A DNA stretch of 14,957 nucleotides, taken from positions 1 to 14,957 of the forward strand of contig VBJR01000091.1 in NCBI GenBank assembly GCA_005880175.1, read 5' to 3'. Position numbers and translations under genes: made by a program. Positions 1 to 10,974 of the stretch are shown in pieces. Position 1 is the first letter of the stretch. The number at the start of each line of letters is the position of its first letter. The notes beneath the pieces were generated by a model. The model made no database searches. It was not told the DNA's origin and worked only from the letters and a program-made list of their open reading frames with translations. This DNA comes from Chloroflexota bacterium. Lineage in GTDB: Bacteria > Chloroflexota > Dormibacteria > Dormibacterales > Dormibacteraceae.

Positions 1-32
1 CCTCGGTGTCCACGGCTGGCTGCAAGTCTCCT

Positions 33-641
33 CTACTCGGCCGTCCCGGCGGCGGGGAGGTCCTCCTCGCGGCCGACCAGCATCAGCTTGGGCTTGGCCC
101 AGACCTCGAGCAGGAAGCCGTCGCCGGCGGCCAGCCGGGCGGCCAGCTCCTGGCGCGGGTACGCCATCGCGTTGACCTCGCGGCCCAGCTCGCGCTCAGC
201 CTCGGCGAGCTGCCGCGACAGGGCGAAGCGCGAGACGTCGCCGACCACGAAGACGTCCAGGTCGCTGGCCAGCGTGTCCTGGGCGCGCGCGGCGGAGCCG
301 AACACGAACGCGACCTCGACCTCGGGCGGCCCCAGCCCGGCCAGCGCGCGGCGCAGCGCCTCGGCGGGGCCGGCAAGCTTGGAGAGGAGCGTCTTGATCT
401 CGGGGAAGATCGGCGAGTCCACCTGGATGCGGTAGACGAACTGCCGGCCGACCTGCTCGCGGTCGACCAGGCCGGTCACCACGGCGCGCTGGAGGGCCCG
501 GAACGTGCTGTCGTGGCTGGCGCCGATCTGGGCCTCGAGCTCGCCGGCGGTGAAGCGGCGGTCGGGCTCGGCGGCCAGGGCGGCCAGCAGGCGGGGCAGG
601 GTCTCGGAGCCGAACAGGGCCTGGGCGACCGAGGTGGGCAC
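33..641 (-). CDS. Winged-helix / nucleotidyltransferase-fold protein, likely autoregulator
   Basis: A 202-aa protein with two parts. Residues about 8-75 look like an ArsR/MarR-type winged helix (LEAQIGASHDSTFRALQ recognition region, then GLVDREQVGRQFVYRI as the wing). Residues about 105-195 are a minimal nucleotidyltransferase fold, with G115-S116, ten residues, then D127-L-D129, the pattern that binds NTP and metal. The C-terminus (EVWAKPKLMLVG) resembles other HTH-nucleotidyltransferase proteins of Archaea and Chloroflexota as I recall them. The third acidic residue of the fold is not evident: the expected strand reads EVNAMAY. I chose the GTG at 641 because the protein similarity starts there and a -10-like TACACT ends 7 nt upstream; the frame stays open to 809, but that part looks non-coding and covers the operator. 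Such fusions are often annotated as antitoxin-like or transcriptional regulators. DNA binding is inferred from the HTH; enzyme activity is uncertain. Confidence 0.82.
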   Translation of the reverse strand: MPTSVAQALFGSETLPRLLAALAAEPDRRFTAGELEAQIGASHDSTFRALQRAVVTGLVDREQVGRQFVYRIQVDSPIFPEIKTLLSKLAGPAEALRRALAGLGPPEVEVAFVFGSAARAQDTLASDLDVFVVGDVSRFALSRQLAEAERELGREVNAMAYPRQELAARLAAGDGFLLEVWAKPKLMLVGREEDLPAAGTAE

Positions 642-648
642 GGCCGGC

Positions 649-654
649 AGTGTA
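649..654 (-). promoter_or_regulatory. -10-like hexamer of the winged-helix/nucleotidyltransferase gene
   Basis: On the minus strand this reads TACACT, one mismatch from TATAAT in the weaker positions, and lies 7 nt before the GTG at 641. That spacing would put the transcription start on or next to the start codon, giving a leaderless mRNA. No convincing -35 is seen; the expected place is occupied by the inverted-repeat operator. Assigned on spacing and sequence only. Confidence 0.4.
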
Positions 655-662
655 CCGCACGA

Positions 663-698
663 GTCGGATTTGCCGACGAGTGAGTCGGAGAAACCGAC
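663..698. promoter_or_regulatory. Composite operator A: two GTCGG-N5-CCGAC dyads, 21 bp apart
   Basis: Two inverted repeats stand in tandem: GTCGG-ATTTG-CCGAC at 663-677 and GTCGG-AGAAA-CCGAC at 684-698. The second extends to 7-bp arms, GAGTCGG and CCGACTC, at 682-700. Six bases separate them and the centres (670 and 691) are 21 bp apart, about two helical turns. The block lies just upstream of the minus-strand start at 641 and about 220 bp upstream of the plus-strand gene at 918. The same arrangement recurs at 2149-2184 before the NYN gene. This looks like a site for two cooperating regulator dimers; the HTH protein encoded next to it is the obvious candidate, though that is inference. Confidence 0.75.
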
Positions 699-917
699 TC
701 TGATGAAGTGGCGGGACCGGCGTGCCGTACGCCGATCCCGCTGAGAGGGGGAGGATGCCGAACTTCCGGACCGGCGGTCTGATCCGGGACTCGCCGGTGC
801 TTGGGCCACCTCCAGGCTGTGTACCCACGCTGGACGTTACGGCCAGCCCGCGAGAGTGGGCGCATGGCGAGCGACCGGCCATAGACAAGTCCCTCGACAC
901 GCCTATCCTGGAGCCCG

Positions 918-1133
918 ATGCTCCAGCGCTGGGAGGCCCTGCCGCCCTCCGTCCAGGCCGCGATCGTGTTCCCGCCCCTGGCGGTCGTGCTGTTCCTGCT
1001 CAACCTGACGGGGTTCAACCAGCCCCTGTGGCGGTCGATCCTCTACGGGCTGATCGAGGCGGCCCCGTTCACGGCCCTGGTCCTGATCGCGACGGCGAAC
1101 GAGCGCCGCAAGCGCTCGGGCGGGGGCGGCTAG
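918..1133 (+). CDS. Small membrane protein, two predicted transmembrane helices
   Basis: A 71-aa protein with no family I recognise. Two hydrophobic stretches are visible, about residues 13-31 (VQAAIVFPPLAVVLFLLNL) and 37-58 (PLWRSILYGLIEAAPFTALVLI), followed by a basic, glycine-rich tail (ERRKRSGGGG). By the positive-inside rule the C-terminus should be cytoplasmic. GGAG sits four bases before the ATG, and a -10-like TATCCT at 903-908 lies slightly further up. The gene converges on the NYN gene: both stop codons lie in a shared CTAG at 1130-1133. The 276-bp gap upstream (642-917) holds operator A near its left end and otherwise nothing I can identify. Coding status rests on the membrane pattern and RBS, so a chance reading frame cannot be fully excluded. 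Confidence 0.6.
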   Translation: MLQRWEALPPSVQAAIVFPPLAVVLFLLNLTGFNQPLWRSILYGLIEAAPFTALVLIATANERRKRSGGGG

Positions 1134-2098
1134 CCCGCCTGGGCGCGGGACGACGCGCTGCGGCGGAACTCCTCCCAGAAGCCGCTGCGCACGATCGGCT
1201 TGAGCTCCGGGCGCTCCCACAGGTAGCCGACCCGCTGCTCGGCGTGGCGCAGCAGCCGGACGTCCAGGTCGCGGGGGACCTGCCAGCCCGTGATCTTGAG
1301 CAGGCGCTCGATGTCGAGCGGCGTGGCCTCCAGCAGCAGCTCGCGCGCGAAGTCGCGGCCCGCCTCCGCCGCCCGCTCCTCGAACGCGGCGACCTCGGCG
1401 CTGGTCTGCCGCAGCAGCGCCTCCACCGAGTCCGCGCCGTCGCCCCCGTGCGCCGCCCGCGCGAACGCCGCCAGCATGCCCGGGTCGTACCCGCCGCGGG
1501 CGGGCTCGGGCCGGGCCGCTCCGGGCGCCTCGTCGCGGGCCGGGACCGCCGGCGCCGGCCGCTCCCGTGCCGGCTCCAGCAGGCGGAAGTGGCTGCGCCA
1601 GAACTCCTCGGGCAGCACCCGGTGCTCGTCCGACTGCTGCATGAGCAGCCGGCTCTGGTTGACGCCCGGCACCCCGAGCACCGTGACCCGGACGCCGTGG
1701 TCCTGGGCCTCGGCCACACCCTCGCAGATGTCCTCGTCGCCGGCCAGCAGGTACGCCGCCACCATCGCGTGGTCGCGCGCGAGCACGATCAGGTCGCGGA
1801 CCAGGCGGCTGTCCACGCCCTTCTGCTCGCCGCGGACCAGGCGGCCGAGGCGGAGCCGCACGCCGGGCAGGTCCGCCACCGTCAGCTGGTCGTGCTCCGG
1901 CTGGCCGCTCATGCTCGCGTCGTACCAGTACGTGCGCAGGAGCGGCACGCCACAGTCGCCCGATGCCTGTGCCTCGAGGCTGCGCACGAGCTGCCCATAA
2001 TCGCAGCTCACGAGGTGCCGCCCGGCCGAGCCCGCCAGCAGCTCGGCGACCGACGCCACCACGTACCCCACATCGACGAAGATCGCGTACCGGTCCAC
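1130..2098 (-). CDS. NYN-domain (LabA/DUF88-like) putative ribonuclease
   Basis: A 322-aa protein whose first 165 residues or so form a NYN domain, the PIN-like nuclease fold of the LabA/DUF88 group. Candidate metal-binding acidic residues are D9 in FVDVGY, D96 in KGVDSRLVRDL, D102, and D121/D123 in LLAGDEDICEGV. The FVD-V-GY motif departs from the commoner FIDGxN form, so activity is likely but not certain. After a proline- and alanine-rich linker (about 175-210) the C-terminal 110 residues are helical and unassigned (ATPLDIERLLKITGWQVP, LKPIVRSGFWEEF); they could bind a partner or RNA. The start is the GTG at 2098, right before the conserved N-terminal strand. Operator B lies 51-86 bp upstream, which suggests shared control with the gene at 33-641. 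The RNA substrate is unknown. Confidence 0.8.
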   Translation of the reverse strand: MDRYAIFVDVGYVVASVAELLAGSAGRHLVSCDYGQLVRSLEAQASGDCGVPLLRTYWYDASMSGQPEHDQLTVADLPGVRLRLGRLVRGEQKGVDSRLVRDLIVLARDHAMVAAYLLAGDEDICEGVAEAQDHGVRVTVLGVPGVNQSRLLMQQSDEHRVLPEEFWRSHFRLLEPARERPAPAVPARDEAPGAARPEPARGGYDPGMLAAFARAAHGGDGADSVEALLRQTSAEVAAFEERAAEAGRDFARELLLEATPLDIERLLKITGWQVPRDLDVRLLRHAEQRVGYLWERPELKPIVRSGFWEEFRRSASSRAQAG

Positions 2099-2148
2099 AG
2101 GCCTGCCCGCACCGATTGTCGCACGGGACCTCCGCGGCCGGCCCGTCA

Positions 2149-2184
2149 GTCGGTAATGCCGATCACCTAGTCGGTTATGCCGAC
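2149..2184. promoter_or_regulatory. Composite operator B: same two-dyad arrangement upstream of the NYN gene
   Basis: GTCGG-TAATG-CCGAT at 2149-2163 and GTCGG-TTATG-CCGAC at 2170-2184 are separated by six bases, with centres at 2156 and 2177. The 21-bp spacing and six-base linker are exactly those of operator A; only the five-base spacers and the linker sequence differ. The right dyad overlaps the stop codon of the nitroreductase gene (2175-2177), while the whole block lies upstream of the NYN start at 2098. A -10-like GACAAT is at 2115-2120 on the minus strand. The conserved arms with divergent spacers indicate selection for protein binding. Confidence 0.75.
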
Positions 2185-2869: not shown

Positions 2870-2897
2870 TTGCGGCTATAGCGACCGTTGGTATATC
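2870..2897 (+). promoter_or_regulatory. Promoter of the PadR operon, probably leaderless
   Basis: TTGCGG at 2870-2875 and TATATC at 2892-2897 are separated by 16 bp and resemble a sigma-70 type -35/-10 pair. The ATG at 2906 starts eight bases after the -10, so transcription would begin at or within two bases of the start codon. ACCGTTGGT at 2883-2891 lies between the boxes and is nearly repeated in inverted form (ACCAACGTACGGT at 2817-2829); these could be PadR contact sites, but the match is imperfect. Confidence 0.5.
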
Positions 2898-2905
2898 GTG
2901 CGGCG

Positions 2906-3235
2906 ATGCAACGTCCACCGAACGAGCTGGCGGGGCTGGGCCGGTTCGAGGAGGCGGCCGTCCTGATCCTCACCAGCCTGCTCCCCGGGCCCCGGCACGG
3001 CTACGCGATCATCAAGGACGTCCGCGAGGTCTCCGGGCTGGTCCTCGGCCCGGGCACCCTGTACGCCGCGCTGTCGCGGCTCGAGGCGCTGGGCCTGGTC
3101 GAGGCCCTGCCTCCCGAGGACCGGCGCCGGCCGTACCGGATCACCGGCGCCGGCATCTCCCTCGCCCGCGACCGGCTGGAACGCATGCGGGCCGTCGCGC
3201 GGACCGGCCTGAACCGCCTGGAGACGCAGTCGTGA
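2906..3235 (+). CDS. PadR-family transcriptional regulator
   Basis: A 109-aa protein of the short PadR class. The winged helix is plain: EEAAVLILTSLLPGPRHGYAI (shown in part), then a recognition region with GPGTLYAALSRLEALGLVE, and the wing DRRRPYRITGAG. PadR proteins usually repress a neighbouring transporter or membrane protein gene and often themselves. The ATG at 2906 is preferred since it follows the -10 by eight bases and starts at the expected N-terminus. Its stop overlaps the GTG of the next gene in a GTGA, so translation is probably coupled. The ligand is unknown. Confidence 0.87.
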   Translation: MQRPPNELAGLGRFEEAAVLILTSLLPGPRHGYAIIKDVREVSGLVLGPGTLYAALSRLEALGLVEALPPEDRRRPYRITGAGISLARDRLERMRAVARTGLNRLETQS

Positions 3236-4200
3236 AGCGGCTGCTGCTGCTCTACCCGCGGCCCTGGCGCGAGCGGTACCAGTCGGAGATGGAGGTGGTG
3301 CTGGAGGGCATGCCGTTCAACCTCCGTGCCGCGCTCGACCTGGTCGCCTGCGCCGCCGATGCCCACCTGCACCCGGTCCGCGCCCTGCGCGGGCGCATCC
3401 CGCTCCTGCTCCAGGTCGCGCTGCTGCTCGGCGTGGGCCTCCTGGTGCTCCCGGCGCTCGAGCAGGTGCTCGAGCGGGTGGCCCGGATTCCGACCGCCGG
3501 GCTCGCGTACAGCCTGGTGCCCTTCGCCCTCCCGCTCCTCGCCGCCGTCCTGGGCTGGCGCGCCGGCTGGGGCCTGGCGGCGTGGTTCTTCGGGCTGGTG
3601 ACGGTCCACCTGGCGGTGAGCAACGGTCAGCTGCTCTCGCTGCTGGTCTTCTACGGGGGGCGCGCCCTGGAGCCGCTGCGGGAGACGGCCGCCGGCTGGC
3701 ATCCCGGCTGGTTCCGCCTCCTGTGGCCGGCCAGTGCCGCCCTGGTCGTGGCGCTCGGCGCGGTCGCGGCGCTCGTCCTTCGCCGTCTGGGCACGGCCTG
3801 GCCAATCGGTCTCGGCATCGGGATGGCGCTGGTCGTGACGGGCGACCTCTGGATCTTCTACGAGTTCCAGAGCCCCATCTGGTCGTACCTGCCTCCGCGC
3901 CCGGGCTGGTTCCGGCTGATGTGGCTCGTCACCCCCGCGCAGGTGCTGGCCTGGGGCGCGCTCACGGCGGCGCTCCTGCGCCGGGCCGGCCTGCCCTGGT
4001 GGGCCGGCCTGGTCGCCGGGACCGTCCTCTGGTGGCTGCTCGGCAGCTCCAAGCTCGCGCCTGCGTACCCCATCGGAGCAATCAGCAACCCGTACCTCCA
4101 GCTGTGGCAGGTGCCGGAGCTGACGTGGGCGATCGTGATCGCCGTCCTGACCGCCACGCGGGCCGGCGGGCCGGCGCCCCGCGAGGCGGCGCGGTGTTGA
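3232..4200 (+). CDS. Polytopic membrane protein paired with PadR
   Basis: A 322-aa integral membrane protein. The first 25 residues (VKRLLLLYPRPWRERYQSEM and on) match the short amphipathic leader LLRLYPRxWRERY seen at the start of many membrane proteins encoded next to PadR genes in actinobacteria and Chloroflexota. After a soluble stretch, roughly seven or eight hydrophobic segments follow from residue 58 onward (for example IPLLLQVALLLGVGLLVLPA and WPASAALVVALGAVAALVL). No catalytic motif or ATPase partner is visible. The start GTG at 3232 overlaps the PadR stop by 4 nt. The end overlaps the next gene. Most likely the main target of the PadR regulator; the function is not known. Confidence 0.75.
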   Translation: MKRLLLLYPRPWRERYQSEMEVVLEGMPFNLRAALDLVACAADAHLHPVRALRGRIPLLLQVALLLGVGLLVLPALEQVLERVARIPTAGLAYSLVPFALPLLAAVLGWRAGWGLAAWFFGLVTVHLAVSNGQLLSLLVFYGGRALEPLRETAAGWHPGWFRLLWPASAALVVALGAVAALVLRRLGTAWPIGLGIGMALVVTGDLWIFYEFQSPIWSYLPPRPGWFRLMWLVTPAQVLAWGALTAALLRRAGLPWWAGLVAGTVLWWLLGSSKLAPAYPIGAISNPYLQLWQVPELTWAIVIAVLTATRAGGPAPREAARC

Positions 4201-6231: not shown

Positions 6232-7093
6232 CAGGCCTCACCTCCTCCGCCGCCGGCCACCGTCCGCTCCGGCTCCGACTCGGGCTCCGGCGCCGGGCTG
6301 CCCTCGGGCTGCTCCCGCCGCCGGCGGAACGCGAGCAGGCCGCCGAGCACCGCCAGCGCCCCCGCGACCAGCACGCCGACGTACCCGCCGATGTCGTTCC
6401 GGCTCGGCAGCTGGGCGCTCTCCCCGGTCGGCAGGCCGTACACCTCGGGCTTGTCCATGAGGAGGAAGAACGAGTTCAGGCCGCCGTAGACCTGGTTCGG
6501 GTCGCGCCCGTACAGCGCTCGTCGAGCTCGCCGAACTGGATCGAGTCCGTCGGGCACGCCTTGGCGCACGCCGGCGTCATGTCGTTCTGCAGCCGGTCGT
6601 AGCAGAGCGTGCACTTGCGGGCCGTCCCGGTCTTCTCGCTGAAGCCGATCACGCCGTACGGGCAGGCCGCGATGCAGTTGCGGCAGCCGTTGCACGTGTC
6701 CTGCTGGATGAAGACGGTGTCGAACTCGGTCCGGATGATCGCGTTGGTCGGGCAGACCTCGGCACACGACGCCTGCTGGCAGTGCTTGCAGACGTCGGAC
6801 ATCATCAGCCAGGCCTGGCCGTCGCCGGCCGTCGTCGCGGCCGTCAGGCGGTCGCCCTCGATGAACTTCACGTGCCGCCAGTTCTCGGCGTCCAGCTTGC
6901 CGGTGTTGTCGAAGCTGTCGGCCAGGAACGCCGGCGGGTTGCCCGTGAGCTCGTTCCACTCCTTGCAGGCGACCTCGCAGGCCTTGCAGCCGATGCACAC
7001 GCTCGTGTCGGTGAAGAACCCCACCCGCGGCTGCGCCTCGTCTCCGTAGGAGCCGGGCCAGGCGTGGGTCTCGAGCTCGAAGAGGTCAGCCAT
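6231..7093 (-). pseudogene. fdhB: Formate dehydrogenase iron-sulfur subunit, frameshifted near the C-terminus
   Basis: Electron-transfer subunit that links FdhG to the membrane subunit. From the ATG at 7093 (GGAGAG eight bases upstream) the first 193 residues carry all 16 cysteines for four [4Fe-4S] clusters: C33/36/39/43, C102/105/110/114, C134/137/140/144 and C161/164/176/180. After QFGELDE the frame changes near 6515-6525. The second frame continues with LYGRDPNQVYGGLNSFFLLMD, KPEVYGLP and one transmembrane helix (IGGYVGVLVAGALAVLGGLL), then a charged tail to the stop at 6231. Family members normally have a linker of roughly twenty residues between the QFGE and LYG motifs; here it is nearly absent. 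So the lesion is a deletion of 3k+1 bases rather than a single miscall. As written, the protein would lose its membrane anchor. It overlaps the upstream fdhG remnant by 8 nt. Confidence 0.85.
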
Positions 7094-7385
7094 CGCGATG
7101 GCTCTCCACCAGCTCGCGGGCGGCGGCGCCGCGCGGGCGCCGGCCGGGACGGATGTCGCAGGTCGCGGCCTTGTACTCGCCGATGTGCACGTTCGAGTCC
7201 ATCGCCACACCCAGCAGATCGTTGGCCGCGTCGCCGGTGCTGTACCCCATGCCGCCCCAGTGGTAGGGCAGGCCGACCTGGTGGATGATCCTGCCCTCCA
7301 CCCGCAGGGGCGGGATCCGTTCGGTGACGAGAACCCGCGCCTCCACGGCGGCGCGCGACGTCACGATCGTCGCCCAGCCGCCGCT
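7086..7385 (-). pseudogene. 3' remnant of a second formate dehydrogenase alpha-subunit gene
   Basis: About 100 residues ending at the TGA at 7086-7088 match the C-terminal molybdopterin-dinucleotide-binding end of FdnG-type alpha subunits: GWATIVTSRAAVEARVLVT, IPPLRVEGRIIHQVGLPYHW, GGMGYSTGDAANDLLGVAMD and NVHIGEYKAATCDIRPGRRP. The intact fdhG upstream has its own, clearly different, C-terminus (QVGIPIHWGF, LANALTPFVGDANARTPEFKA), so this is not a displaced piece of it. The remnant overlaps the fdhB start by 8 nt, as expected for a native fdhG-fdhB junction. Its 5' side is cut at about 7380-7445, where fdhE sequence begins in another frame. Either a deletion fused two fdh loci or the assembly joined them. 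Not functional as it stands. Confidence 0.75.
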
Positions 7386-7849
7386 CCACCCTCCTCGCTT
7401 CGCGGGGGGTACCCGGGGGTGCGGATTTCGTGGGGTGGGTCGCCGGGACACAGCACGGCCAGGCCCTCCGGGTCCATCGCTTCCAGCACCGGCGCGCACG
7501 CGGCGCGGGCCAGGTAGCGGTCCACGAGCGACTGCTCGGCGCCGCGCAGCCAGCGCCCGATCACGTCGTCGAGGTCGGCGGAGTGGAAGCGCGCGACCGC
7601 GCTCTCCGCCAGCTTGACCGGCCCCGCGGCCACCGTCACGTCGATCACCTTCGGCAGCAGCTCGCGGGCCAGGCCCGCCGCCGCCCCGGGCGGCGCGCCG
7701 GCCGCCGCCGCGAAGGCCGGCTCCTGCACGTCGAGCAGCGCCAGGTACAGCGTCAGCACCTCGGCCGCGAAGGGGTGGCGCTCCCGCAGCTGCGCGGCGC
7801 GCCGCCTCCGGTCGGGCCAGGGTGAGCGGGTCGCGTCCACCTGCGCCAT
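7361..7849 (-). CDS. fdhE: FdhE-like formate dehydrogenase accessory protein, 3'-truncated
   Basis: A 162-aa protein (from ATG 7849; GTG 7852 is also possible) resembling the N-terminal half of FdhE, which is needed for maturation of selenocysteine formate dehydrogenases. Seen: QLRERHPFAAEVLTLYLALLDVQ (in pieces), then LPKVIDVTVAAGPVKLAE and SLVDRYLARAACAPVLEAM. Family members are about twice this length and carry several CxxC motifs in a rubredoxin-like C-terminal half. Here similarity ends around LCPGDPP at about 7435-7450, then the frame runs through low-complexity sequence to the stop at 7361. The metal-binding half is therefore missing. The start overlaps the fdhG stop (GTGATG), so the gene is translationally coupled to fdhG. 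Probably inactive, unless the truncation is an assembly artefact. Confidence 0.68.
   Translation of the reverse strand: MAQVDATRSPWPDRRRRAAQLRERHPFAAEVLTLYLALLDVQEPAFAAAAGAPPGAAAGLARELLPKVIDVTVAAGPVKLAESAVARFHSADLDDVIGRWLRGAEQSLVDRYLARAACAPVLEAMDPEGLAVLCPGDPPHEIRTPGYPPRSEEGGAAAGRRS
7386..7438. repeat. GC-rich inverted-repeat element at the fdhE/fdhG-remnant junction
   Basis: CCACCC at 7386-7391 and GGGTGG at 7433-7438 are inverted arms around a GC-rich middle that contains the palindrome GGGTACCC at 7407-7414 (approximate) and a run of six G. Neither flanking protein family explains this stretch; the residues it encodes in both frames are low-complexity. It sits precisely where fdhE stops resembling its family and the second fdhG begins. 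It may be a copy of an interspersed repeat; only one copy is present in this window. Confidence 0.4.
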
Positions 7850-10800
7850 CACATCTTCTCGACGTTCACGAGGAACGCCTTGAACTCGGGCGTGCGGGCG
7901 TTCGCGTCGCCGACGAACGGCGTCAGCGCGTTGGCCAGCCAGTGGTCGCCCTTGTTGATGCCGACGAAGCCCCAGTGGATGGGGATGCCGACCTGGTAGA
8001 CCTTCTTACCGCCGACCGTGATCGGTCCCAGCCGCTTGGTGACCAGCGCCAGCACCTCCAGCTTGCCCCGCTGGGAGCGCACCCGGACCTTGTCGCCGCT
8101 CTTGATGCCCAGCGACTGGCCGAGCTCGAACGGGATCTCCACGAACGGGTCCGGCTGCAGCCCGACCAGCAGCGGCACGTGCTGCGTGACGTAGTGCTCG
8201 TGCTCGGTGAGCCGGTAGCTGGTCGCGACGTACGGGAAGTCCTGCACCGTGCCGAACCGGCTCGGCCGGCCCGCGGCCTGGTCGTACAGGAACGCGACCG
8301 GGTCCGCCGAGTTGGCGGGGTGGAGCGGGTTGGGGATGGGCGACTCGATCGGCTCGTAGTGCTCGGCGAACGGCCCGTCCACCATCGAGTTGGAGAACAG
8401 GCGACCCGTGCCCTCGCCGTTCATGATGAACGGCAGGTACGCGGCGGGGTCGGCAGGGTTCATCGTCGGCGGGTAGTCGGGCACGTCGCCGACCCAGGTG
8501 GTGCCGTTCCACTTGATGCCCGCGCGGGTCGGGTCCCACGGCTGGCCGGTCAGGTCGGCGGACGCCCGGTTGTACAGCACGCGCCGGTTGAGCGGCCAGC
8601 TCCACGCCCAGTTGGGATAGAACCCCATCCCGGTCGGGTCGTTCTTGGCCGGGTCGCGGACGCCGTCGCGGCGCCTGGACAGGTTGGCCGTGGCGCGGCC
8701 GGCCGCGGTCGGGGCCGACGGGTCCGGGTAGCTGCCGGTGTAGATCCAGTCGCCGGCCGTCGTCGTGCCGTCGTCCTTCAGGTTCGCGAACGTGGCCATG
8801 CGCTTGCCGGTCGTCAGGTCGAACCCGTTGATCTCCTGCGCGATCTCGTCCAGCTGCGGCTTGAGCTGGTCCTGGTACTTCATCTGGAGCGTGAGCACCG
8901 GGTCGGGGAACTTGCCGCCCTTGGCCTGGTACAGCTTCTTGATCCGGTCGAACAGGTCGGCCAGCACCCAGTGGTCGTGGCGCGAGTTGCCCTGGGGCTG
9001 GAGCACCTGGTCCTTCCACTGCATCCAGCGGCCGCTGTTCACGAAGGAGCCGTCCTTCTCGATCCAGTGGGTGGTCGGCAGCATGAAGACCTCGGTGTCG
9101 ATCTGCGTGGGATCGAGGCCGGGCGCGTGCCAGAACTCGGAGCTGGTGGTCGGGAACGGGTCCATCACGACCAGCCACTTCAGCTTGGTCAGCGCCGTCA
9201 GCACCTGGTTGCTGTCCGGCCCGATGCTGGTGGCCGTCATCCCCGAGAGGATGATCCCCTGCATCTTGCCCCGCAGCGCCTGGTCGTAGATCGTGATCCA
9301 GGACGCGTTGGAGGCCGGCTTGGGGACGAAGTCGAACGCGAACTCGTTGTCCTTCGTCGCGGCGTCGCCGTACCACCCCTTCAGCAGGCTGACCATGAAC
9401 TTCCGGTAGTTGATGCCGAATAAGTTCCAGGAGTTCGGGTGGGTCTTCTTGGCCGCCGACTGCGCGACGTAGTCGTCCAGGTTCTTCTGGCCCGGCGCCG
9501 GGATCTTCAGGTAGCCGGGCAGGATCTCCCACGAGATCGCGTGGTCGGTGTTGGCCTGGATGTTGGCGTGGCCGCGCTCGGCGTTCATGCCCCCGCCCGG
9601 CATGCCGATGTTGCCGAGCAGGAGCTGGAGCTGCGCGCCGGACCGGATCAGCTGGCCGCCCGTCGTGTGGTGGGTGAGGCCGACCGCGTACACGATCGAC
9701 ATCACCTTGTCGGGCCGGCCCATCTCGCCCACCAGGGCGGCGACCTGCAGGAACTGCTCCTTCCGGATGCCGGTGATGCTCTCGACGACGTCGGGCGTGT
9801 ACCGCGAGTAGTGCTCCTTCATGAGCTGGAACACCGTGCGCGGGTCCTGCAGCGTGGGGTCGGTCCTCGCGTACCCGGTCGCCGGGTCCGTGTCGTAGTT
9901 CCAGGTGGACGTGTCGTACGTCCGCTTGGTGGCGTCGTAGCCGCTGAACAGGCCGTCCTTGAAGCCGTAGCCGTCCTTCACGATCCACGCGGCGTTGGTG
10001 AAGTTGGCGACGTAGTCCTTCTGGTGCAGGTCGTTCTGGAGGACGTAGTTGATCAGGCCGCCGAAGTACGCCACGTCCGTGCCGACGCGGATGCGCAGGT
10101 ACCGGTCGGCCACGGCCGAGGTGCGGGTGAAGCGCGGGTCCGCGTGGACGATCTTCGCGCCGCGGTCCTGCTTGGCGCGCATGAACCACTGGAAGCCGAC
10201 GGGATGGGCCTCAGCGGGGTTGGCGCCGTTGATCAGGATCAGGTCGGCGTTCTTGAGGTCCCGCCAATGGTTGGTCATGGCCCCGCGTCCGAAGGTGGCC
10301 GCCAAACTGACGACCGTGGGGCCGTGTCAAACGCGGGCCTGTTGTTCCAGGTGGATCAGGCCCAGGCCGCGCATCACCTTCGCGGCGAGGTAGCCTTCCT
10401 CGCTGCTGAACGCGGCGCCGCCCGCGAAGGCGACGCCCTCGGTGCGGTTCACCGTGTTCCCGTTCGCGTCGGTGGTGACGAAGCTGCTGTCCCGGGCGTC
10501 CTTGACGCGCTGCGCGAGCATGTTCAGCGCGTCGTCCCAGCTGATCTTCTTCCAGGACCTGGACTTCGGCGCCCGGTACAGCACGTCCTCGACGCGGTTG
10601 GCGGACGTCGCCAGCTGCATCGCGCTGGCGCCCTTCGGGCACAGCCGGCCCTCGTTCACCGGGCTGTCCGGGTCGCCCTCGATCTGGAGGAGCTTGCCGG
10701 CGTCGTTGGTGTACGCGAGGATCGAGCAGCCCACCGCGCAGTACGGGCACACCGAGTGCGATTCGCGAGCCCCGGCGATGCGCAGGCTCTGCTTGACCTC

Positions 10801-10899
10801 GTACGCCTGCGCGAGGTCGAACCCAAGAGCCGAGAGACCGACGCCGCCGGCGCCCGCCGCTCCGATCTTGAGAAAGTCACGTCGGCTGATGGCAGACAC
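7849..10899 (-). CDS. fdhG: Formate dehydrogenase major subunit with selenocysteine (TGA-Sec191)
   Basis: A 1016-aa molybdopterin enzyme that oxidises formate to CO2, nearly identical in length to E. coli FdnG (1015 aa). An in-frame TGA at 10327-10329 interrupts the frame and fits exactly the family position NQARV-Sec-HGPT: here EQQARV-Sec191-H192-GPTVVSLAATFGRGAMTNHW. Both flanks are conserved and in one frame, so this is recoding and not a lesion. The N-terminus has a twin-arginine signal (ISRRDFLKIGAAGAG), so export by Tat is expected. C51, C54, C58 and C87 bind the [4Fe-4S] cluster. The GTG at 10899 is chosen as start because GAGGGGGGG lies nine bases upstream and the signal peptide begins there; an ATG at 10974 in frame would cover the promoter. 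First gene of the operon and overlapping fdhE. SelA, SelB and tRNA-Sec must be encoded elsewhere. Confidence 0.95.
10297..10329 (-). promoter_or_regulatory. Selenocysteine TGA with bacterial SECIS-like hairpin in fdhG
   Basis: On the mRNA strand, TGA (10329-10327) is followed after 11 nt by a 7-bp stem, GGUCGUC (10315-10309) with GGCGGCC (10303-10297), closed by the five-base loop AGUUU. Two of the seven pairs are G-U. The 11-nt distance equals that in the E. coli fdhF element as I recall it (CACGGCCCAUC before GGUUGC), and the loop contains G and U as SelB recognition sites do. The hairpin also encodes conserved protein residues, as is usual for bacterial SECIS. Confidence 0.85.
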
Positions 10900-10944
10900 A
10901 GCCCGATTCCCCCCCCTCAGTGGATCGATCTGAAACGCGGTTCG

Positions 10945-10974
10945 AGCGTACGGCCCACGAGAGTTCGCCGTCAA
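10945..10974 (-). promoter_or_regulatory. Promoter of the fdh operon
   Basis: On the minus strand TTGACG (10974-10969) and TACGCT (10950-10945) are separated by 18 bp, a fair -35/-10 pair. Transcription would begin near 10938, leaving a leader of about 40 nt that includes the GAGGGGGGG ribosome binding site. The -35 box lies 16 bp from the divergent GTG start at 10991, so the two promoters overlap and may interfere or share regulation. No known regulator site is recognised. Confidence 0.5.

Follow-up and report, generated by a model that had tools for sequence, protein, structure and literature searches.

A double-dyad operator before a probable HTH-fused HEPN/MNT antitoxin gene and a linked NYN nuclease gene: a predicted small regulon in Dormibacteraceae

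In a stretch of 14,957 nucleotides from a member of the Dormibacteraceae (Chloroflexota; contig VBJR01000091.1), called here the window, two genes on the minus strand are each preceded by a pair of palindromes with a common half-site and a common spacing. One gene encodes an HTH-nucleotidyltransferase (HTH-NTase) and the other a NYN-domain protein. The best explanation, which we consider probable, is that the HTH-NTase is the HTH-fused antitoxin of a HEPN/MNT module, acts as an autorepressor through the double dyad, and also controls the linked NYN gene as part of one regulon. The palindromes, which lie two helical turns apart, would each be occupied by one dimer of the protein, and in the bound state the promoter of the module would be shut. 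The matching operator before the gene of the NYN nuclease would provide a second target in this lineage, and the HEPN/MNT pair and the nuclease would together make up one small regulon. The system would respond to a trigger: HEPN might remove the MNT protein from the DNA, for example, or the antitoxin might be lost.

The twin sites and the HEPN/MNT module

Operator 1 (663-698) consists of two GTCGG-N5-CCGAC dyads (663-677 and 684-698) and is located 5' of the HTH-NTase gene, 21 bp upstream of its GTG at 641. Operator 2 (2149-2184), with dyads at 2149-2163 and 2170-2184, lies 50 bp 5' of the NYN start codon (GTG at 2098); it shares bases with the stop codon of the nitroreductase gene that comes before. 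Their sequences are GTCGG-ATTTG-CCGAC-GAGTGA-GTCGG-AGAAA-CCGAC and GTCGG-TAATG-CCGAT-CACCTA-GTCGG-TTATG-CCGAC, respectively, and in both the dyad centers are 21 bp apart. Inspection of the sequence bears out the coordinates and spacing given in the initial annotation, which had also called the sites identical; with 19 of 20 half-site positions in agreement, one C changed to T and different spacers, the word is a little strong. The spacers and linker agree at only 5 of 16 positions, and the 40-bp flanks at 7/40 and 14/40. A recent duplication is unlikely, since the half-sites match while the spacers, linker and flanks differ. When one more base is read outward, the half-site becomes AGTCGG in six of the eight copies. 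The dyad centers are A+T rich (16 of 20 positions over both operators) in a window of 73% GC. When up to three mismatches were allowed, the two operators were the only places in the window to match the composite site (shuffle mean 0.08), and the composite was found in none of 3000 windows simulated with an order-2 Markov model. Single dyads are less rare: with at most one mismatch the window has eight, four of them within the operators, against a shuffle mean of 3.17 and a largest shuffled count of 8.

The HTH-NTase (33..641, minus strand; 202 aa, GTG start) comprises a winged HTH and an MNT domain with the GSX10DXD motif (GSAARAQDTLASDLD, residue 115). It matches the PADLOC model PDC-M05A (PDLC04368) at 2e-48 over the full length, with residues 3-196 of the protein on 4-196 of the 201 model positions. 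The HTH part scores 29.3 bits with MarR_2 (cut-off 27), and in the MNT part NTP_transf_2 is above its cut-off and Polbeta just below; the equivalog cut-off of NCBIfam MntA is missed (23.5 vs 60 bits). The AlphaFold model has a mean pLDDT of 92.8. The best 50 Foldseek matches are partial (largest query TM-score 0.39): the MNT part matches the MNT antitoxins 8xeo, 7bxo and 1no5, and the HTH part matches MarR and ArsR proteins; RbkR (5trd) is also among the partial matches. A winged HTH together with a dyad operator 5' of its own gene are features that the HTH-NTase shares with autorepressors of the MarR/ArsR winged-HTH kind. Three of the four matches with an organism name come from Candidatus Dormibacteraeota and one from Terriglobales. 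The probable role of the protein is that of the antitoxin in a pair with HEPN, of either the toxin-antitoxin or the phage-defence type, and the module is best read as a HEPN/MNT whose MNT bears a winged helix.

The predicted partner, PDC-M05B, is cut by the window edge, and what would be its first codons (GTG GAC ACC GAG; 1..13, minus strand) follow an AGGAG at 28-32. In a chimeric homologue of the HTH-NTase (P0106), the polypeptide runs on into a protein beginning VDAE; orthologues begin VDAE or MDAE, and the GTG of the window is the probable start of the HEPN partner. With the P0106 tail as query, nine proteins were found, and all five that were scanned match PDC-M05B (1e-8 to 2e-6); the Pfam HEPN model is seen in only two of these five, below threshold in both. 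One HEPN cluster and one NTase cluster have contigs of equal size (2566). The class I HEPN motif RX4HXY is absent from all nine partner homologues; RREIAYD takes its place in seven, and eight have an RX6H string elsewhere (RPGGxxAH), so that RNase activity has not necessarily been lost. The lack of RX4HXY fits the class II HEPN/MNT pairs as given in the available text of PMC7641770, and such HEPN proteins may employ a histidine elsewhere (PMC3710099, from the part of the text available).

Further along the window, a gene for a formate dehydrogenase alpha subunit (7849-10974, minus strand) has an in-frame TGA at residue 216, in the context ARV-U-HGPT, which is probably read as selenocysteine; no Rfam model matches the window at its gathering score. 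The end of an ORF at 7086-7499 (minus strand), VHQVGLPYHWGGMGY, resembles the C terminus of a formate dehydrogenase alpha subunit, which would be the second in the window, and the ORF stands before an iron-sulfur subunit gene.

The double dyad and its relation to the HTH domain in relatives

A genome-contig scan gave 354 loci with relatives of the HTH-NTase, of which the best 80, 30-44% identical to it and from many phyla, formed a first set that holds several near-duplicates (for example L006/L009 and L051/L059). The 200 bp 5' of each gene were scored for two dyads of a common half-site at a spacing of 13-45 bp, a score of at least 10/12 being taken as high. Of these best 80, 34 have a high-scoring double dyad, and the spacing is 21 bp in 34/34; with one shuffle per locus, none of the 80 reached the score. 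A stricter script flagged 26 of the same 80 (0.4% of shuffles), 24 of them at 21 bp and L061 at 42 bp; L032 was rejected as an artefact of masked bases. A second set consisted of 30 Chloroflexota loci, from matches in 30 of 400 genomes, and here 13 scored high, 12 at 21 bp and one at 23 bp; in this set L089 coincides with L051, and L099-L101 have one operator in common. Among 400 other ORFs, 11 have a high score in their upstream region, none of them at 21 bp. The remaining loci, 46 of the best 80 and 17 of the 30, are below threshold, and as many loci are close kin, none of these counts is one of independent cases. An ORF follows the gene in 75 of the best 80 loci and matches PDC-M05B in 55 of the 70 scanned. 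At L015, L061, L062 and L067 the operator extends to three or more dyads, again in steps of 21 bp, and L048 has a second dyad pair close by.

The operator could also be read in protein form, in homologues whose annotated start is so early that the upstream DNA is translated. Twelve proteins have at least 24 residues ahead of the anchor; five were left aside, P0085 as truncated and matched internally and P0112, P0115, P0116 and P0119 as distant homologues. In all seven close ones with an intact N-terminus (P0016, P0037, P0043, P0048, P0075, P0087 and P0106) the dyads are present as VGxAD/VGxPD-like pairs, the reading of GTCGGnnnnnCCGAC, seven residues (21 nt) apart. One dyad of P0016 is imperfect, and P0087 has VWxSQ, that is, another half-site at an unchanged period. 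The general picture that emerges is that a 21-bp double dyad before the HTH-NTase gene is common to many distant relatives, and the motif whose absence before orthologues would have spoken against the initial annotation is present for this gene.

The half-sites covary with the protein. Half-site distance correlates with recognition-helix distance after removal of NTase-domain distance (partial Mantel r 0.50; p 0.0002, the floor of 5000 permutations; 50 rows, namely 49 loci and the window), and the reverse partial correlation is 0.155. The remainder of the HTH domain is no less well correlated with the half-sites than the recognition helix (0.60 vs 0.57), and the covariation therefore points at the HTH domain and not at single residues. 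Examples of paired helices and half-sites are xGxGAVQREL with ACCC, TSAGTLHKEL with GTAGC and, in the window, ASHDSTFRALQ with AGTCGG.

The position of the predicted promoter is also informative. In 20 of 49 loci (22 of 49 by a slightly different rule), the best sigma-70 -10 box is at +6 from the center of dyad 1, and in seven of 49 it is at +9; in 60 shuffles, no single offset was reached more than five times. The -10 position and the half-site are not independent, since the TAC at the half-site end contributes to TACAAT. A -10 box at +6 puts dyad 1 within the -35/-10 spacer and dyad 2 on the start region, as for an autorepressor. In the window, no -10 box is found between the dyads of operator 1. 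A weak candidate promoter recognized by eye, TCGGCA-16-TACACT (649..676, minus strand), ends 7 nt before the GTG and, if it is a promoter, may place operator 1 on the -35; a promoter scan of the window returned no promoter on the strand of the HTH-NTase gene, this one included. The initial annotation had the HTH protein repressing both itself and the NYN gene. As to the first part, relatives have the double dyad at 21 bp, its half-sites covary with the HTH domain, and the -10 box tends to fall between the two dyads; autoregulation of the HTH-NTase through the predicted operator is strongly supported by these sequence comparisons. The second part is likely, on the evidence that follows.

The NYN gene and the alternatives

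The NYN-domain protein (1130..2098, minus strand; 322 aa, GTG start) has its NYN domain at about 1-173 (PF01936, 36.1 bits; cut-off 24.2) and a helical C-terminal domain at 206-321. Acidic residues D60, D96, D102, D121, E122 and D123 are invariant in 36 sequences and D9 is nearly so; the best fold match, 2qip, carries the title "unknown function". The protein is a predicted RNA-cutting nuclease. Two of its three closest matches with an organism name are from Dormibacteraeota and one is from Eisenbacteria. Between the NTase and NYN genes, a small predicted membrane protein is encoded at 918-1133 (plus strand), convergent with the NYN gene, and the ends of the two genes overlap by a few bases.

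In relatives the two genes appear to travel together. Eleven NTase and NYN clusters, from part of both lists, have longest contigs of pairwise equal size (2711 to 108,747), compared to a mean of 0.5 and a maximum of 4 in a control with jittered sizes; shared contigs of this kind speak for linkage of the two genes and not for the presence of an operator. One NYN homologue with an early start, P0144, begins M-P-T, as ATGCCGAC would read, which is one weak hint only. From the window's own site and the contig linkage, control of the NYN gene by the HTH-NTase is likely.

Further targets were sought in the genomes of relatives. Of 25 genomes, 12 have an ACCC/GGGT composite with at most one mismatch, and in 11 of these 12 it coincides with the NTase operator; the reversed pattern used as control was found at five places in four genomes. 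The looser GNAGC pattern matched in 21 of 21 genomes, the control being higher in 13 and lower in eight (five of these Legionella, with a control of 0). No convincing second target of the regulator emerged across the 25 genomes. The extra places G010:C8 and G418:C49 are GC-rich with one mismatch and were taken as chance; that in L048 is a neighboring dyad pair, and that in L056 is a relic of an NTase start. At L056, a second double-dyad operator (2275-2308) is followed by a broken copy of the first 23 NTase codons, 1.2 kb before the intact gene. NYN genes beside the module in other phyla were considered at L081 and L082 and rejected, as the NYN genes are on other contigs than the NTase. On a Thermoleophilia contig (L001), a distant NYN/LabA-like ORF at 2893-3558 (plus strand) is directly 5' of an HTH-NTase gene and has no operator of its own. 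Control of the NYN gene, if real, would then be restricted to this lineage.

The HTH-NTase could instead control its own operon only, with operator 2 either the remnant of a former copy of the module promoter or a site of which the NYN gene makes no use. The broken NTase start of L056 is a precedent for such a remnant, the 25 genomes of relatives offered no convincing second target, and there is no clear promoter 3' of operator 2. A decaying copy would not, however, preserve half-sites at 19 of 20 positions between flanks that cannot be aligned, and the NTase and NYN genes remain linked in relatives; we regard this account as rather unlikely. Lower still do we place activation, whether at both sites or at one of the two promoters with repression at the other. 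It would suit an operator 1 that is mostly upstream of TACACT, the window's only -10-like sequence there, and an operator 2 situated 50 bp ahead of the NYN start, but the tendency of the -10 box to fall between the dyads in relatives favors occlusion.

That another regulator acts on both sites is very improbable. A global regulator might do so, or the PadR-family protein encoded at 2888-3235, about 700 bp away from operator 2; the PadR gene, however, has no composite site upstream, and the layout tracks the HTH-NTase over many phyla, the half-sites varying together with its HTH domain. An origin by chance or as a mobile repeat can hardly be entertained and was rejected: a viral contig does have an exact composite at an unrelated position, but the simulations and shuffles gave next to none, the IMG/VR collection has a single stretch with the composite, and the 21-bp spacing is conserved in the HTH-NTase family. 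The viral copy (L113, 669-704), the only exact one in IMG/VR, lies between transposase- and ATPase-like genes of a Mu-like element and was taken as chance; no relative of the HTH-NTase protein was found on viral contigs. Autorepression with shared control of the NYN gene is thus the reading that we prefer. We can also picture, as a speculative and doubtful extension of it, a three-part conflict system in which the HEPN protein without RX4HXY would be a nucleotidylated sensor that lifts the HTH-MNT protein off the DNA, both promoters would open, and the NYN protein would be the RNase effector. If this were true, the 21-bp double dyad would be a general transcriptional switch of HTH-fused HEPN/MNT modules.

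Comparison with known systems

Several known systems share parts of this arrangement. In the AbiE toxin-antitoxin system, the winged-HTH antitoxin AbiEi represses its own transcription by binding to two inverted repeats, and the module also includes a nucleotidyltransferase, which is encoded by a separate toxin gene. In the window, by contrast, a single protein combines HTH and NTase, and its predicted partner is a HEPN protein. RbkR (5trd), a riboflavin kinase with a winged HTH, is alike in the fusion of a winged HTH to a nucleotide-using enzyme; it differs in enzyme fold and is not known to have a HEPN or NYN partner.

The initial annotation knew of no described system built from an HTH-nucleotidyltransferase and a NYN protein. 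This does not hold for the core, because the HTH-NTase belongs to PDC-M05A and thus to a candidate HEPN/NTase pair that is already known, as its NTase member; the predicted HEPN partner was overlooked since the window stops within what would be its first codons. PDC-M05 is a PADLOC candidate defence pair of NTase M05A and HEPN M05B, whose antiviral role is called unconfirmed in the available part of its description (PMC12988326). The likeness extends to a full-length M05A match, an expected M05B-like neighbor and the same gene order in relatives. The difference is that no operator is mentioned in the available text of that source (PMC12988326), and that the window adds a second operator before the NYN gene. 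In the type VII HepT/MntA systems of class II, as far as the accessible text goes, an MNT with GSX10DXD is likewise paired with a HEPN protein that lacks RX4HXY and has a conserved tyrosine, the MNT gene being first (PMC7641770). MntA, however, is described there as a minimal NTase, whereas the protein of the window adds an N-terminal winged HTH and an operator; promoter, operator, palindromes and autoregulation go unmentioned in that paper (PMC7641770). Operator, palindromes and autoregulation likewise go unmentioned in the Legionella HEPN-MNT paper. According to the available portion of a 2009 survey (PMC2701414), the antitoxin of MNT/HEPN pairs is unlikely to regulate transcription, and a DNA-binding component may be supplied in trans.

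The titles and abstracts of the open-access papers searched yielded no operator for an HTH-fused HEPN/MNT and no link to NYN. The module is known as a candidate kind; relative to that literature, the rule for the operator appears new, and so does the proposal that a NYN gene is under shared control. The HTH-fused HEPN/MNT would thus have a readable operator code, one that is directly testable and by which regulons may be found from sequence, and that code would tie a second predicted nuclease, the NYN protein, to the switch.
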